Positions 47,683-54,776 of a DNA stretch of 64,000 nucleotides are shown here, in pieces. The notes under the pieces are model-generated. The model made no database searches. It was given only the letters and a program-made list of their open reading frames with translations, and had not been told where the DNA came from. Every line of letters starts with the position of its first letter. The first letter of the stretch is position 1. Origin of the DNA: SAR116 cluster bacterium AG-355-O21 (lineage in GTDB: Bacteria > Pseudomonadota > Alphaproteobacteria > Thalassobaculales > Thalassobaculaceae); contig QCEM01000006.1 of the NCBI GenBank assembly GCA_003280605.1, forward strand, positions 1 through 64,000, given 5' to 3'. A program made the position numbers and the translations under genes.

Positions 47683-48564
47683 GTGTCACCTATGCGCTTA
47701 AAACAAGATCAAATTGACCGCTTTTGGCGCGATGGCTGCTTGGTCGTCGAGAATGCCGTCAGCGCCCAGCAACTTGCCGCCATTAACGCCGAGCTGCAGA
47801 GCTGGGTCGAGGAAAGCCGGCAGCACACATCGCCCTTTGGTCCCCTGACAATTGATGAGCGGCCACGGTTTGACATGGGCGCCGAGCATAGCGCCGATCG
47901 CCCGGCATTGCGGCGGGTGAATAATCCTGCCGAAATCTCTCCTGCATATATGGAGGTGATGCGCGATTCCGCAATGGTCGACATGGTTGCCGATCTGATT
48001 GGCCCAGATGTGAAATATCATCACTGTAAGCTCAATATCAAACTGCCAGGCGCGCAAACGCGGGTGCATTTTCATCAAGACTTTATGTACACACCACACA
48101 CCAATGATGACATCGTCACAGCATTGCTGATGCTTGAGGATGTTGATGAGACCAATGGCTGCTTGATGATTGTTCCCGGCAGCCATCGTGGTCCACTGGA
48201 CAGTCTTTTTGCCGATGGTGTCTTTACCGGCATGGTGGCCGACGCGCGGGCCAGTGAGTTGACCGCCGCGCAAGTTCCGGCGATGGGCAAAGCTGGCTCG
48301 GTCTGTCTGATGCACACGCGGCTACAACATGCCTCGGAGCCAAACGCAGGCAGCCGTGCACGGCCCCTTTACATTTGTGTTTACAGCGCGGCCGATGCGG
48401 TGCCGATTGCACGCAATCCCATGCCTAGCCCGCATGAAGGCATGATTGTCCGGGGTCGGCCGAGCGCCTCCGCGCGCATGGTTGACCTTCAAGTTGAGCT
48501 GCCCAAACAGCCGAAATCAGCCTCCTTTTTCACCGTCCAAGGGCAAGCCTCGGTGGAAGCTTAA
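47683..48564 (+). CDS. Phytanoyl-CoA dioxygenase (PhyH) family protein
   Basis: A 293-residue Fe(II)/2-oxoglutarate oxygenase. The iron-binding HFHQDFMYTPHTNDDI supplies His and Asp, CLMIVPGSHRGPL is the family motif, and HASEPNAGSRARPLYICVYSAAD contains the distal His and the 2-oxoglutarate Arg. The first residues LKQDQIDRFWRDGCLVVENAVS are typical of PhyH. The start is GTG at 47683 or ATG at 47692. Substrate unknown. Its stop overlaps that of the convergent ABC ATPase by 4 bp. Confidence 0.87.
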   Translation: MSPMRLKQDQIDRFWRDGCLVVENAVSAQQLAAINAELQSWVEESRQHTSPFGPLTIDERPRFDMGAEHSADRPALRRVNNPAEISPAYMEVMRDSAMVDMVADLIGPDVKYHHCKLNIKLPGAQTRVHFHQDFMYTPHTNDDIVTALLMLEDVDETNGCLMIVPGSHRGPLDSLFADGVFTGMVADARASELTAAQVPAMGKAGSVCLMHTRLQHASEPNAGSRARPLYICVYSAADAVPIARNPMPSPHEGMIVRGRPSASARMVDLQVELPKQPKSASFFTVQGQASVEA

Positions 48565-49334
48565 CGGCGATCTTCTGCCGTCGCGACTTTCGGACTTGCC
48601 GTCAGATCAAGACCGTCAATGATGGTTTCTTTCAGCGCCTGTACCTGCGAGTCGGCGCGCCGCCGTGGCCGCCGCATGGTGACCTCAGAAATGCTATGGA
48701 TCCTGCCTGGTTGACCCTGCATCGACACCACACGATCGGATAACACCACACCTTCTTCAACATCATGTGTCACCAGAACCATGGTAATATTGAGCGCCGA
48801 CCAAAGACCGAGGAGGTGATCCTGCAAGCTTTGCCGGGTGAAGCTATCAAGTGCGCTGAATGGCTCATCAAGCAGCAAAACAGACGGTTTTCGTGCAAGC
48901 GCCCGGGCAATCGCAACCCGCTGCGCCATGCCACCCGATAATTCTTTCGGCAGCGCAGCTGCGAATTTGGATAAACCGACTTTGGCCAAAGCATCGTCTA
49001 TTAGTCTTTCCTGCTGCCGCCAGGGCTGGTGCAACAGCGCCAAACGGATATTCTCGCGGGCCGATAGCCAGGGCATCAAGCGCGGCTCTTGAAAAACCAT
49101 TGCTGCCGGCGGCTTTGGTCCCGTTACCGTTTGACCGGCGAGGCGAACCGCGCCGGCCGATGGTTGTGTGAGACCGGAAATGATCCGTAACAACGTTGAC
49201 TTGCCGCAACCTGAGGTGCCAACGAGTGAGACGATTTCAGATGTATCAATGGTCAAGTTAATGTTTTCAAGCGCGTTATTTTGCTGCCCCTGACGACGGC
49301 CAAAGGTTTTTGATACGTTTCTGACTTCAAGCAT
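48561..49334 (-). CDS. ABC transporter ATPase, nitrate/sulfonate/taurine type
   Basis: A 257-residue ATPase. Walker A is LVGTSGCGKSTLLRIISG, the signature ELSGGMAQRVAIARALA, Walker B VLLLDEPFSALD, and the H-loop VTHDVEEGVVLSDRV, as in SsuB/TauB. The start is the ATG of MLEVRNVSKTFG; the ORF-track extension lies in the permease gene. It overlaps the permease 3' end by 8 bp. With the permease and binding protein upstream it forms a three-gene importer. Confidence 0.92.
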   Translation of the reverse strand: MLEVRNVSKTFGRRQGQQNNALENINLTIDTSEIVSLVGTSGCGKSTLLRIISGLTQPSAGAVRLAGQTVTGPKPPAAMVFQEPRLMPWLSARENIRLALLHQPWRQQERLIDDALAKVGLSKFAAALPKELSGGMAQRVAIARALARKPSVLLLDEPFSALDSFTRQSLQDHLLGLWSALNITMVLVTHDVEEGVVLSDRVVSMQGQPGRIHSISEVTMRRPRRRADSQVQALKETIIDGLDLTASPKVATAEDRR

Positions 49335-50184
49335 GTTCACGCTCCTGAAGGCTAAAGTTATCGTCACGCCAATGCAGTAAGCGCTCGCTAACTGCGGTGA
49401 TCGCGGTATCGGACAGCTTTCCGACAATGGCGAACAACACCAGTGCCGCGATTATGATCGACGGCCGGCCGGTCATCTGACCATCAAGCATTAGGAAACC
49501 AAGCCCTTCGCTCGCACCCATGAGTTCAGCGGCAATCACAAACATCCAGCCAAGCGCCAAGCCCGCCCGCAGGCCGGTGAAATAAGCAGGCAAGGTCGCC
49601 GGTAAAAGGATCCGCCGCACCATATCGACACGGCCAAGACCATTGATGCGGCCAACTTCAACCAGTTTACGATCCGTGCCGTCGATGCCAGACAACAGGT
49701 TAAGATAAACGGGAAAGAACACACCAACGGCAATCAGGGTCACCTTTGAGGTTTCAAAAATGCCAAACCAGAGAATGAAAATGGGCACCCAAGCAAGCGA
49801 AGGCACTGCCTTCAAAGCTTGTAAACTCGGATCGAGATAGTCACGTGCGTGGCGGGAGTAACCAGCGATTGCGGCAAGCAAAGTGGCACAGCCGGCACCC
49901 AGTGCAAAACCGATAACAACCCGCCACCCGGTGACCGCAATATGCGTAAACAGCGCCCCATCGGCGGCCAGTTCAAGAATGTCGGTCAGGATCAAAAGCG
50001 GCGGCGGCACCAAATGCGCTGGAAACAGCTGAACCAATGTTAAGATATGCCAGATGATGACCCCGGCGACCGGCAGCAACAGCCCCCGTAACCAACGCTG
50101 GGTATGGCGCAACAGGGCCGGGCGACGACGACGTCGCCCAGCCTGTCCCCAACCGCTTGGTGTTGCGGTGAGATTGATGCTCAT
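49327..50184 (-). CDS. ABC transporter permease, sulfonate/taurine type
   Basis: A 285-residue membrane protein with about six hydrophobic segments. VFFPVYLNLLSGIDGTDRKLVEVGRINGLGRVDMVRRILLPATLPAYFTGLRAGLALGWMFVIAAELMGASEGLGFLM is the EAA-loop region of SsuC/TauC-like permeases. The N-terminus is unusually basic (AGRRRRRPALLRHTQRWLRG) before the first helix. It lies 3 bp after the binding-protein stop and overlaps the ATPase gene. Confidence 0.92.
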   Translation of the reverse strand: MSINLTATPSGWGQAGRRRRRPALLRHTQRWLRGLLLPVAGVIIWHILTLVQLFPAHLVPPPLLILTDILELAADGALFTHIAVTGWRVVIGFALGAGCATLLAAIAGYSRHARDYLDPSLQALKAVPSLAWVPIFILWFGIFETSKVTLIAVGVFFPVYLNLLSGIDGTDRKLVEVGRINGLGRVDMVRRILLPATLPAYFTGLRAGLALGWMFVIAAELMGASEGLGFLMLDGQMTGRPSIIIAALVLFAIVGKLSDTAITAVSERLLHWRDDNFSLQEREHA

Positions 50185-50187
50185 CGC

Positions 50188-51180
50188 TTAAAATGCCCGC
50201 ACGGCATTAATGAAGCGGATATCAATCAGCTCATCGACGGTTTGGGCGATATCCACATCCGCTTTAATTATCCCGATTTTTTGCAGAATATCACCCGCGG
50301 CCAAAAAGGTTTGGCGATGCGCCTTGCCGATGGTGGGGTTGGAAATATCTGTCCGCTCTCCCAACTGCAGCGCCGCTACTTTTGGCTCAACCCGTGCCGC
50401 CTTGACCAAGGCTGCTTCTAGTTCGGCTGGGTGTGTGAGGGCATATCGACGCGCCCGCTCATACACCAGCAGCACCCGCTCAACCAGTTTTGGGTTGCGC
50501 GATGCAAAAGCTTCCCGAACATTCAAAATCCCATAGGTATTCAAATCGGGATTGCGAAAAAATAGCTCGGTATCGCCGGCAAGCTGGCCTTTCGCCATAT
50601 GCAGATCAAGCCCGGCCCAGGCATCCACCTGATCCTTGATCAAAGCGGTATAACCATCAGGATGTTGCAGCAGGACGGGGGTTATATCGCGCTCGCTCAG
50701 ACCAACGGAATCTAACGCCCGCAGCAGGAAAATATGCGGGTCAGTTCCTCGCGTCACCGCCACACGCTTGCCTTTCAGGTCTGCAATCCGCTTGATCCCA
50801 GAACCACGGCGGGTAACCAACGCCGTCCATTCTGGTTTCGAGTAAACATAGACCGCCTTGATCGGCAAACCGCCGGCACGGCCAATCACCGATGCCGCCC
50901 CTGCGGTCGACCCAAAGTCGACAGATCCGCCGCGCAAAAATTCCAGCGCCTTATTCGATCCGAACGATAGGACCCAGCGAACTTTAATGCCTTCCGCAGC
51001 CAAATCTTCTTCAAGCCAGCCTTTTTGCTTGAGCAAAATGCTGACCGGGTCGTAATAAGCCCAATCGACGGTGATCGTGCTTGGCTTATCGGCAGCGGTG
51101 GCAGGCGTGTAGAAGGCCAGGGCCGCCCAGGCAAAAATCGCCGACACCCAAACCGTTGGTTTGATTTTCATCGTAAACAT
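50188..51180 (-). CDS. ABC transporter substrate-binding protein, aliphatic sulfonate-like
   Basis: A 330-residue periplasmic protein with a signal peptide (VWVSAIFAWAALAFYTPATAADK). ITVDWAYYDPVSILLKQKGWLEEDLAAEGIKVRWVLSFGSNKALEFLRGGSVDFGSTAGAASVIGRAGG is typical of SsuA-type type-II binding proteins. The true ligand could be a sulfonate, nitrate, thiamine precursor or other small anion. The ATG at 51180 has AGAGGAG upstream, and this ribosome-binding site lies inside a predicted hairpin. The gene heads the operon behind an unusually structured leader. Confidence 0.88.
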   Translation of the reverse strand: MFTMKIKPTVWVSAIFAWAALAFYTPATAADKPSTITVDWAYYDPVSILLKQKGWLEEDLAAEGIKVRWVLSFGSNKALEFLRGGSVDFGSTAGAASVIGRAGGLPIKAVYVYSKPEWTALVTRRGSGIKRIADLKGKRVAVTRGTDPHIFLLRALDSVGLSERDITPVLLQHPDGYTALIKDQVDAWAGLDLHMAKGQLAGDTELFFRNPDLNTYGILNVREAFASRNPKLVERVLLVYERARRYALTHPAELEAALVKAARVEPKVAALQLGERTDISNPTIGKAHRQTFLAAGDILQKIGIIKADVDIAQTVDELIDIRFINAVRAF

Positions 51181-51189
51181 TTGTCATCT

Positions 51190-51226
51190 CCTCTTGCGGG
51201 CGCTCAAAAAAGCGCCCCATAAGAGG
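51190..51226 (-). promoter_or_regulatory. Hairpin that covers the Shine-Dalgarno of the binding-protein gene
   Basis: On the minus strand CCTCTT pairs with AAGAGG and, inside that, GGGCGCT pairs with AGCGCCC around a TTTTTG loop. The two stems (6 and 7 bp) are separated by a 3/2-base internal loop. AAGAGG is part of the AGAGGAG ribosome-binding site of the gene starting at 51180, so the folded form should block translation. Confidence 0.6.
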
Positions 51227-51322
51227 CTCGATTTTCAGTGAACAGGAGAAGCTACGATGATGACTGGGATCGCGTGCCCCGAGCGCCAAAAAAGCCGCTG
51301 AGACGATTGTCCTCGGGATAAT

Positions 51323-51398
51323 AAGCCCCGTGGTCCTTGGGACAAAAAGCCCCGTGGTCCTTGGGACAAAAAGCCCCACAATCCTGGAGACGAAAAAG
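51323..51398 (-). repeat. Tandem 24-nt hairpin repeats in ABC-importer leader
   Basis: Period-24 repeats begin at 51323, 51347 and 51371, with the next boundary 25 bp on at 51396. On the minus strand each unit has GGGGC-TTTTT-GTCCC, able to form a 5-bp stem with a U-rich loop, joined by AAGGACCAC linkers. The copy nearest the gene reads CGGGG-CTTATTA-TCCCG-like and still pairs despite a changed loop. Confidence 0.7.
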
Positions 51399-51431
51399 CC
51401 CCACGTCACTCACCGTGGGACTCGCTCCCAC
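51399..51431 (-). terminator. Attenuator-like alternative hairpins in ABC-importer leader
   Basis: On the minus strand three segments occur in order: GTGGGA, TCCCACG and CGTGGGG followed by CTTTTT. Segments 1 and 2 pair (6 bp, loop GCGAG); segments 2 and 3 pair (6-7 bp, 8-base loop) to give a terminator with a T-run. The pairings exclude each other, as in transcription attenuators. Confidence 0.6.
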
Positions 51432-51448
51432 TCGCTTTAGCTGGATTT

Positions 51449-51477
51449 TATATAGCGCCCCGCAAGCTGAGCCTCAA
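51449..51477 (-). promoter_or_regulatory. Likely promoter of the ABC importer operon
   Basis: On the minus strand TTGAGG (51477-51472), a 17-bp spacer and TATATA (51454-51449). The start of transcription would be near 51441, giving a leader of about 260 nt before the ATG at 51180. Confidence 0.5.
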
Positions 51478-51489
51478 ATTAGCGCTGAT

Positions 51490-54026: not shown

Positions 54027-54173
54027 TAGATTTTGCGTAACGGTAGCGCTCGTAATAAGTTTCTTCAACTTTAGATTATTCTCCTCTGAACTATAGTATG
54101 ACTCGGCGAAGAACGGCATTTTTGCACCACTTTTGCATGATGCACACAAACCGAACATTAGTGAGGAATGCTT

Positions 54174-54776
54174 ATGACCGTTATTTTGACCAACCTTAAA
54201 TACACCGTCATTGGCGGTATCGTATTGACCGTCATTCTCATCGCCGTGATGAGTAACCTGCCCGGCGAACGTTTTGCCGTGGATCATGCCTGGTTGACGT
54301 TCATCTTCCGTTGGCTGCACGTGCTGAGTGGTGTGATGTGGATTGGGCTGTTGTGGTATTTGAACTTTGTTCAAATTCCGAACATGCCGAATATTCCTGA
54401 TGAACACAAACCAGCCATTGGCAAAGTTATCGCGCCGGCCGTTTTGTTCTGGTTTCGCTGGGCCGCAATGACAACCCTCATCACCGGCCTGATCGTCGCT
54501 TACATGAATGGCTATCTGCTCGAGGCAATCACCCTTGGCAGCGACGGTGCAAGCAAAAGTACCATAATCGGGATTGGCATGTGGCTTGCCGCCATTATGT
54601 GGTTCAACGTTTGGTTTGTCATTTGGCCCAATCAAAAGCGGGCTTTGGGGATTGTTGAGGCCGATGTCGACAGCAAGGCTGCCTCGGCAAGAACGGCAAT
54701 GCTGTTTTCACGCACCAATACATTGCTCTCCATCCCGATGCTTTATGCCATGGTTGCGGCTCAAAACATTTATTGA
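54174..54776 (+). CDS. PuuD-like urate hydroxylase-family membrane protein
   Basis: A 200-residue membrane protein with about four to five hydrophobic segments. FIFRWLHVLSGVMWIGLLWYLNFVQIPNMP, VLFWFRWAAMTTLITGLIV and MWFNVWFVIWPNQKRALG match the membrane part of PuuD-like urate hydroxylases (DUF989-related). The C-terminal cytochrome c domain of full PuuD is absent, and no purine catabolism gene is nearby, so urate oxidation is uncertain. ATG at 54174 has GAGG 7 bases upstream; ATG at 54168 is the alternative. Confidence 0.75.
   Translation: MTVILTNLKYTVIGGIVLTVILIAVMSNLPGERFAVDHAWLTFIFRWLHVLSGVMWIGLLWYLNFVQIPNMPNIPDEHKPAIGKVIAPAVLFWFRWAAMTTLITGLIVAYMNGYLLEAITLGSDGASKSTIIGIGMWLAAIMWFNVWFVIWPNQKRALGIVEADVDSKAASARTAMLFSRTNTLLSIPMLYAMVAAQNIY

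Follow-up and report, generated by a model that had tools for sequence, protein, structure and literature searches.

A SAM-II-type leader before an SsuA-type importer that may act on transcription and translation from one aptamer

The importer locus and its leader

In the 64,000-nt stretch of DNA analyzed here (the window), an importer operon is encoded on the minus strand, in which the gene for the binding protein is followed by those for the permease and the ATPase, and a leader of about 300 nt precedes the first gene (Table 1). The name "sulfonate" for this importer comes from family similarity; the substrate would be a sulfur source. The 298-nt leader folds better than its dinucleotide shuffles (z -2.48, 1/200). 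The same variant leader was found before orthologous importers in several alphaproteobacterial families. Elsewhere in the window, a protein encoded on the plus strand (54168-54776) matches Urate_ox_N (PF06181) at the end of the family only and has no NCBIfam match.

Table 1. Features of the importer operon and its leader (window coordinates)
Feature	Position	Strand	Basis or remark
Substrate-binding protein	50188-51180	-	TIGR01728 SsuA_fam, 218 bits (cut-off 163.5)
Importer permease	49327-50184	-	PF00528
Importer ATPase	48561-49427	-	PF00005; ntrCD/SsuB-like
P1 stem and loop of the aptamer	51454-51486	-	cmscan RF00521; P1 covariation
P1 pairing, AGCGCU with GGCGCU; L1 UUU	51486-51481 with 51459-51454; 51478-51476	-	aptamer
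GAGGCUC, P2 pseudoknot 5' strand, alternatively putative relay helix 5' strand	51469-51475	-	complement before AUG in 18/18 leaders
GCUAAA, ligand-pocket strand (G42 C43 U44 A45 A46 A47, 2QWY numbering)	51436-51441	-	sequence; PMC3764141
GAGU, P2 3' strand, overlapping antiterminator segment 1	51430-51433	-	pair counts; sequence
Antiterminator 1:2, GUGGGA/UCCCAC (51431-51426 with 51420-51415)	51415-51431	-	sequence; -8.7 kcal/mol alone
Intrinsic terminator 2:3 (stem 51423-51396, T-run 51397-51393)	51393-51423	-	terminator scan; -17.2 kcal/mol
GGGGC-U5-GUCCC hairpins, 24-nt tandem repeats, closed by GAUUGU/ACAAUC	51305-51402	-	TRF
UCUCCU, alternative upstream anti-Shine-Dalgarno element	51244-51249	-	complementary to the Shine-Dalgarno AGGAGA
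Putative relay GAGCCUC	51223-51229	-	reverse complement of 51475-51469; CCUC is the 5' arm of the hairpin sequestering the Shine-Dalgarno
Two-tier hairpin CCUCUU/AAGAGG, inner GGCGCU/AGCGCC, over the ribosome-binding site	51190-51226	-	-22.7 kcal/mol on its own
Shine-Dalgarno AGGAGA	51187-51192	-	sequence; opening-cost models

The aptamer at the head of the leader

The first-pass annotation had taken the leader for an unrecognised element that it could not match to SAM or other known riboswitches, although it left a metabolite aptamer open. A search of the whole window with Rfam 15 at gathering cut-offs indeed gave no match (TPP, SAH, SAM-I, SAM-V and the rest), but a permissive cmscan of the leader recovered SAM_alpha (SAM-II, RF00521) over the full model at 51495-51416 (29.6 bits, E 8e-5), which overturned the description as unrecognised. 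The score lies under the RF00521 gathering cut-off of 36 bits, which is a database inclusion threshold and no physical feature. When the genome was searched with this one family, the leader site ranked second among four matches (E 9.8e-5). Many SAM-II sites of this bacterial family score just below the cut-off; of 61 genomes, 26 contain a site above it, and many more contain sites only below it.

The aptamer occupies the first 60 nt of the leader. Six orthologous leaders were aligned, and a covariance model (R1), a check suggested in the first-pass annotation, was built from these alone; its matches, found in 30 of 36 genomes from the order, mostly coincide with RF00521 SAM-II sites, and it thus recovers the SAM-II sites of the order. 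P1 comprises six pairs with 100% of cells paired in the six sequences, and two of these pairs are changed on both sides. In the P2 H-type pseudoknot, pairs 19-22/59-62 are 95.8% paired and pairs 28-29/51-52 are 100% paired, and the P2 pair C23-G42 covaries, being replaced by U-A in one leader (L061). Overall, 98.6% of the cells are paired, compared with 21-50% in slid versions of the alignment. Moreover, the SAM-II pocket has a set of fully conserved bases, namely U10-12, U20, U21, G22, C23, G42, C43, U44 and A45-47 (PMC3764141), and all 13 are present in the window (the L1 UUU, UUGC at 51465-51462 and GCUAAA).

On this sequence evidence, the aptamer is almost certainly of the SAM-II type, a variant of RF00521 that scores under the Rfam cut-off, and it would be expected to bind SAM. 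The variant set is marked by GAGGCUC; two members (L003 and L004) have an extra loop base and a position 10 other than U, which is also not U in L118, and P2 is weakened in L140, with GAC in place of GAG. The metabolite aptamer that the first-pass annotation had entertained is therefore the right answer, and the Rfam SAM-II cut-off passes over a coherent subgroup.

Terminator, repeat array and ribosome-binding site

A promoter, TTGAGG-N17-TATATA (51476-51471/51454-51449), had been proposed in the first-pass annotation. The two hexamers correspond to L1/P2 and to the P1/L3 border of the aptamer, where the sequence is conserved as RNA in the orthologs, and a consensus promoter scan gives the pair no support. 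Since TTGAGG/TATATA falls inside the aptamer, the true promoter must lie upstream of it. The window sequence ahead of P1 is A+T-rich, and a TTGAC(A/G)-type -35 element is found about 37 nt upstream of P1 in most orthologs.

Downstream of the aptamer, the pair of mutually exclusive hairpins with a T-run lies where it had been described and corresponds to a SAM-II antiterminator and terminator. The terminator stem has 10 pairs, and the scan returned four terminator-like sites against 0.9 expected. The terminator is located about 37-47 nt past GCUAAA, in the same place in the orthologs (11 leaders scanned). The first antiterminator segment overlaps the P2 strand GAGU, and antiterminator and terminator compete. 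We infer that termination is SAM-dependent: in the SAM-bound state, the 5' end of the first antiterminator segment would be held by the P2 pseudoknot (CUC:GAG), terminator 2:3 would form and transcription would stop, whereas in the absence of SAM the 1:2 antiterminator would form and the polymerase would read through.

Between the terminator and the putative relay (see below) lies the array of U-loop hairpins. As described before, 24-nt repeats are present (2.9 copies, 93% matches, 51377-51309 by TRF). No further copy of the unit occurs in the rest of the window (0 expected by chance), elsewhere in the genome or in the one congener genome sampled; none of 17 orthologous leaders has the array. 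Because the first arm of the array is the 3' arm of the terminator, this sequence would most simply have arisen when the terminator tail was duplicated in tandem, an event specific to this lineage. The first-pass annotation had instead suggested that Hfq or some other RNA-binding protein binds repeatedly here, for which four U-loop hairpins in a 24-nt register, at -2 to -7 kcal/mol each, could be cited; an array confined to this genome and accounted for by simple tandem duplication makes such a function most improbable. The units can also pair in the other register (GUCCC-N9-GGGGC-U5), and could then form a chain of extra terminators that sharpens the off state. One more unit was scored as terminator-like by the scan, but each unit is predicted to be more stable as a U-loop hairpin (-7.0 kcal/mol) than as a weak terminator (-5.7 kcal/mol), the stems have just five pairs and the array is not conserved, so that we consider this role rather unlikely. 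We also looked for U-loop hairpins as a conserved element and rejected this candidate; significant base pairing between the 3' arm of the terminator and the stretch following the T-run was seen in 6 of 18 leaders versus 8 of 41 other SAM-II elements, which is no clear excess.

Each of the 18 variant importer leaders contains, once and 46-71 nt before the AUG, a perfect reverse complement of the 7-mer in its own aptamer (hereafter the relay), for which shuffling gives a chance of 2.8% per leader. Among other SAM-II elements a relay match was found in 4 of 79, one of them (L087) being a leader whose importer is lost; these figures count second aptamers elsewhere in three of the sequences (L116, L117 and L119, no relay) as controls, and the comparison is otherwise 18 of 21 against 4 of 76. 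Aptamer and relay are 122-161 nt apart; in the window, the inserted U-loop array widens this distance to 246 nt. The sequences around the relay have diverged (median identity 0.41). Seventeen leaders carry GAGGCUC/GAGCCUC, and the remaining one (L142) has GAGGUUC/GAACCUC, a compensatory change that alone is not significant by shuffling (74/500). The 18 leaders are related sequences, and the helix is supported by this single compensatory change; additional genomes screened for such changes yielded the same leaders again. In 13 of the 18 leaders, the Shine-Dalgarno hairpin leaves the GAG half of the relay unpaired, yet this half is invariant or covarying. The predicted minimum-energy fold lacks the relay helix in most leaders, that of the window among them (cost 0-14 kcal/mol versus the free ensemble), and the helix would therefore need kinetic help. 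From sequence comparison and folding models, we regard the aptamer-relay helix as likely; this would point to one sensor for the control of transcription as well as translation.

Several loci beyond the variant importer leaders have related arrangements. L087 (1510-1665) retains aptamer and relay and looks like a decayed importer locus, the leader now being followed by a short ParD-like ORF (named by eye from sequence). In L118 (1510), a variant aptamer with GAGGCUC precedes a non-importer gene and has no relay. Besides, in L121 (1743) and L124 (1734) a start-proximal second SAM-II aptamer carries GAGGATC, whose exact complement GATCCTC occurs 83-87 nt downstream; this match is possibly an independent relay, or it may be chance.

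The two-tier hairpin over the ribosome-binding site is also located as first described. When the 3' part of the leader was folded alone, 16 of 18 leaders had the relay CUC paired with the Shine-Dalgarno or right next to it, and the pair adjoining this contact varies (U-A, G-C, C-G and U-G). With the relay helix forced, the predicted cost of opening the Shine-Dalgarno drops from 7.2 to 1.9 kcal/mol (medians of the 18 leaders) and, in the window, from 7.2 to 1.0 kcal/mol, in a folding model that considers nested pairs only and so has no place for a pseudoknot of UCUCCU with the Shine-Dalgarno. The decrease exceeds 1 kcal/mol in 17 of the 18, and none shows the opposite direction. When the position of the block was varied as a control, the Shine-Dalgarno opened with the block at the relay and stayed closed with it 4-40 nt upstream (window, 7.1 kcal/mol at -4 and 0.7 kcal/mol at 0). 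A block of the relay only supports release of the Shine-Dalgarno in 11-14 of the 18 leaders. In the window, when 40 nt of upstream sequence are included, it stays closed under this block (7.2 to 6.4 kcal/mol) because of the second anti-Shine-Dalgarno element, UCUCCU; forcing the full helix resolves this failure, under nested folding only.

In the proposed mechanism, GAGGCUC freed in the read-through mRNA would pair with the relay GAGCCUC, the relay would leave the Shine-Dalgarno and translation would start; if SAM recaptured the aptamer, the relay would return onto the Shine-Dalgarno and translation would be shut.

Two-level control and the sulfur/methionine regulon

We conclude that the leader is probably a riboswitch of the SAM-II type that shuts off the importer at high SAM levels, acting at two levels from one aptamer. 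That the same SAM-II aptamer governs both termination and translation through a conserved 7-bp helix, from its P2 strand to a distal anti-Shine-Dalgarno, is a reading that we favor with somewhat less confidence. The earlier picture of a structured two-level control region with a terminator and a ribosome-binding-site hairpin fits these results, and the leader is conserved upstream of the same importer.

A plain SAM-II transcription switch, in which aptamer and terminator do everything and the complementarity to the aptamer is incidental, would be the simplest competitor. Most SAM-II elements are predicted to be terminator-only (PMC2258182), CCUC pairs with a GAGG-like Shine-Dalgarno in most leaders, and there is one compensatory event only; GAGCCUC could then be kept solely as an anti-Shine-Dalgarno arm that holds basal translation low, GAGGCUC and the Shine-Dalgarno side both being GAGG-like. 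This would leave unexplained why the relay GAG, unused by the Shine-Dalgarno hairpin in most leaders, is invariant and why it changes together with the aptamer in L142. Other SAM-II aptamers vary at the 7-mer positions and have no complement, and the relay is missing where this importer has a canonical SAM-II leader. We therefore judge a plain switch to be improbable. It is even less likely that the variant aptamer has the SAM-II fold and senses a different sulfur metabolite. Its distinct sequence set (GAGGCUC, the extra loop base in L003 and L004, and the position 10 changes, including L118) might suggest so, but every listed SAM contact is retained in the window, and orthologous importers are preceded by SAM-I and canonical SAM-II riboswitches.

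Compared with known systems, the leader shares with SAM-II (SAM_alpha, RF00521) the P1 stem, the H-type pseudoknot, the pocket bases, the downstream terminator, the occurrence in alphaproteobacteria and the methionine/sulfur regulon. It differs in its score below the gathering cut-off, its position before an SsuA-type ABC importer and a fixed GAGGCUC strand able to pair with a distal anti-Shine-Dalgarno relay. Tandem SAM-II/SAM-V and doublet SAM-II "bi-mechanism" riboswitches act on transcription first and translation second within one leader (PMC9481103); SAM control at both levels would be shared, but those leaders have two aptamers, and here one appears to serve both levels. In Rfam scans, the stretch 51415-51180 contained no further SAM aptamer. 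The SAM-II riboswitch of S. meliloti metA has a terminator and a distant translation start, with a Shine-Dalgarno in the riboswitch itself (PMC9373788), whereas the Shine-Dalgarno here is about 280 nt away and would be reached by the relay strand. Single-aptamer dual expression platforms with the ribosome-binding site inside the terminator hairpin are also known (PMC2258182); one aptamer and two levels would be common to both, but terminator and ribosome-binding-site hairpin are separate here, about 170 nt apart. In the open-access literature searched, we found no one-aptamer SAM-II leader with a separate distal anti-Shine-Dalgarno relay. If the proposal is true, an aptamer hands a strand to a distant anti-Shine-Dalgarno, which would be an alternative to two-aptamer bi-mechanism leaders.

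It is worth mentioning that other genes (L091, L093, L094, L100, L108, L110, L111, L121, L124, L125 and L132-L134) are preceded by two SAM-II aptamers in tandem, which are separated by about 120-230 nt and the second of which lies close to the start codon (GGGATTTGAGGGGCAGCTTG...GCTAAAGC). These pairs resemble the published SAM-II doublets.

A close ortholog of the binding protein is present in 26 of 385 genomes of the class. Seven of the 26 have the variant leader, nine have a SAM-II of more canonical form (above the cut-off in four of these, L158, L162, L163 and L175), and a SAM-II match is absent in 10. Importer orthologs on rhizobial and Azospirillum plasmids have no SAM-II match, and several plasmid copies adjoin ssuD, sfnB or tauD. 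None of the viral contigs searched encodes the importer. The best SAM-II site of the genome itself (35.1 bits) lies upstream of a metY/metZ-type, O-acetylhomoserine-sulfhydrylase-like gene. Moreover, four Bacillota orthologs (L068, L071, L073 and L076; Alkalicoccus and Salipaludibacillus) are downstream of tandem SAM-I riboswitches (69-95 bits), and L068, the only one of these read from end to end, has a metY-like gene, with a fused CoA-binding domain, between SAM-I and the importer. The presence of two unrelated SAM riboswitch classes before orthologous importers is independent evidence that the importer serves sulfur/methionine supply, and therefore that it belongs to the SAM-controlled sulfur/methionine regulon. 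An SsuA-type importer that is usually annotated just as "aliphatic sulfonate" transport is thereby placed in a SAM-controlled regulon across distant bacteria.
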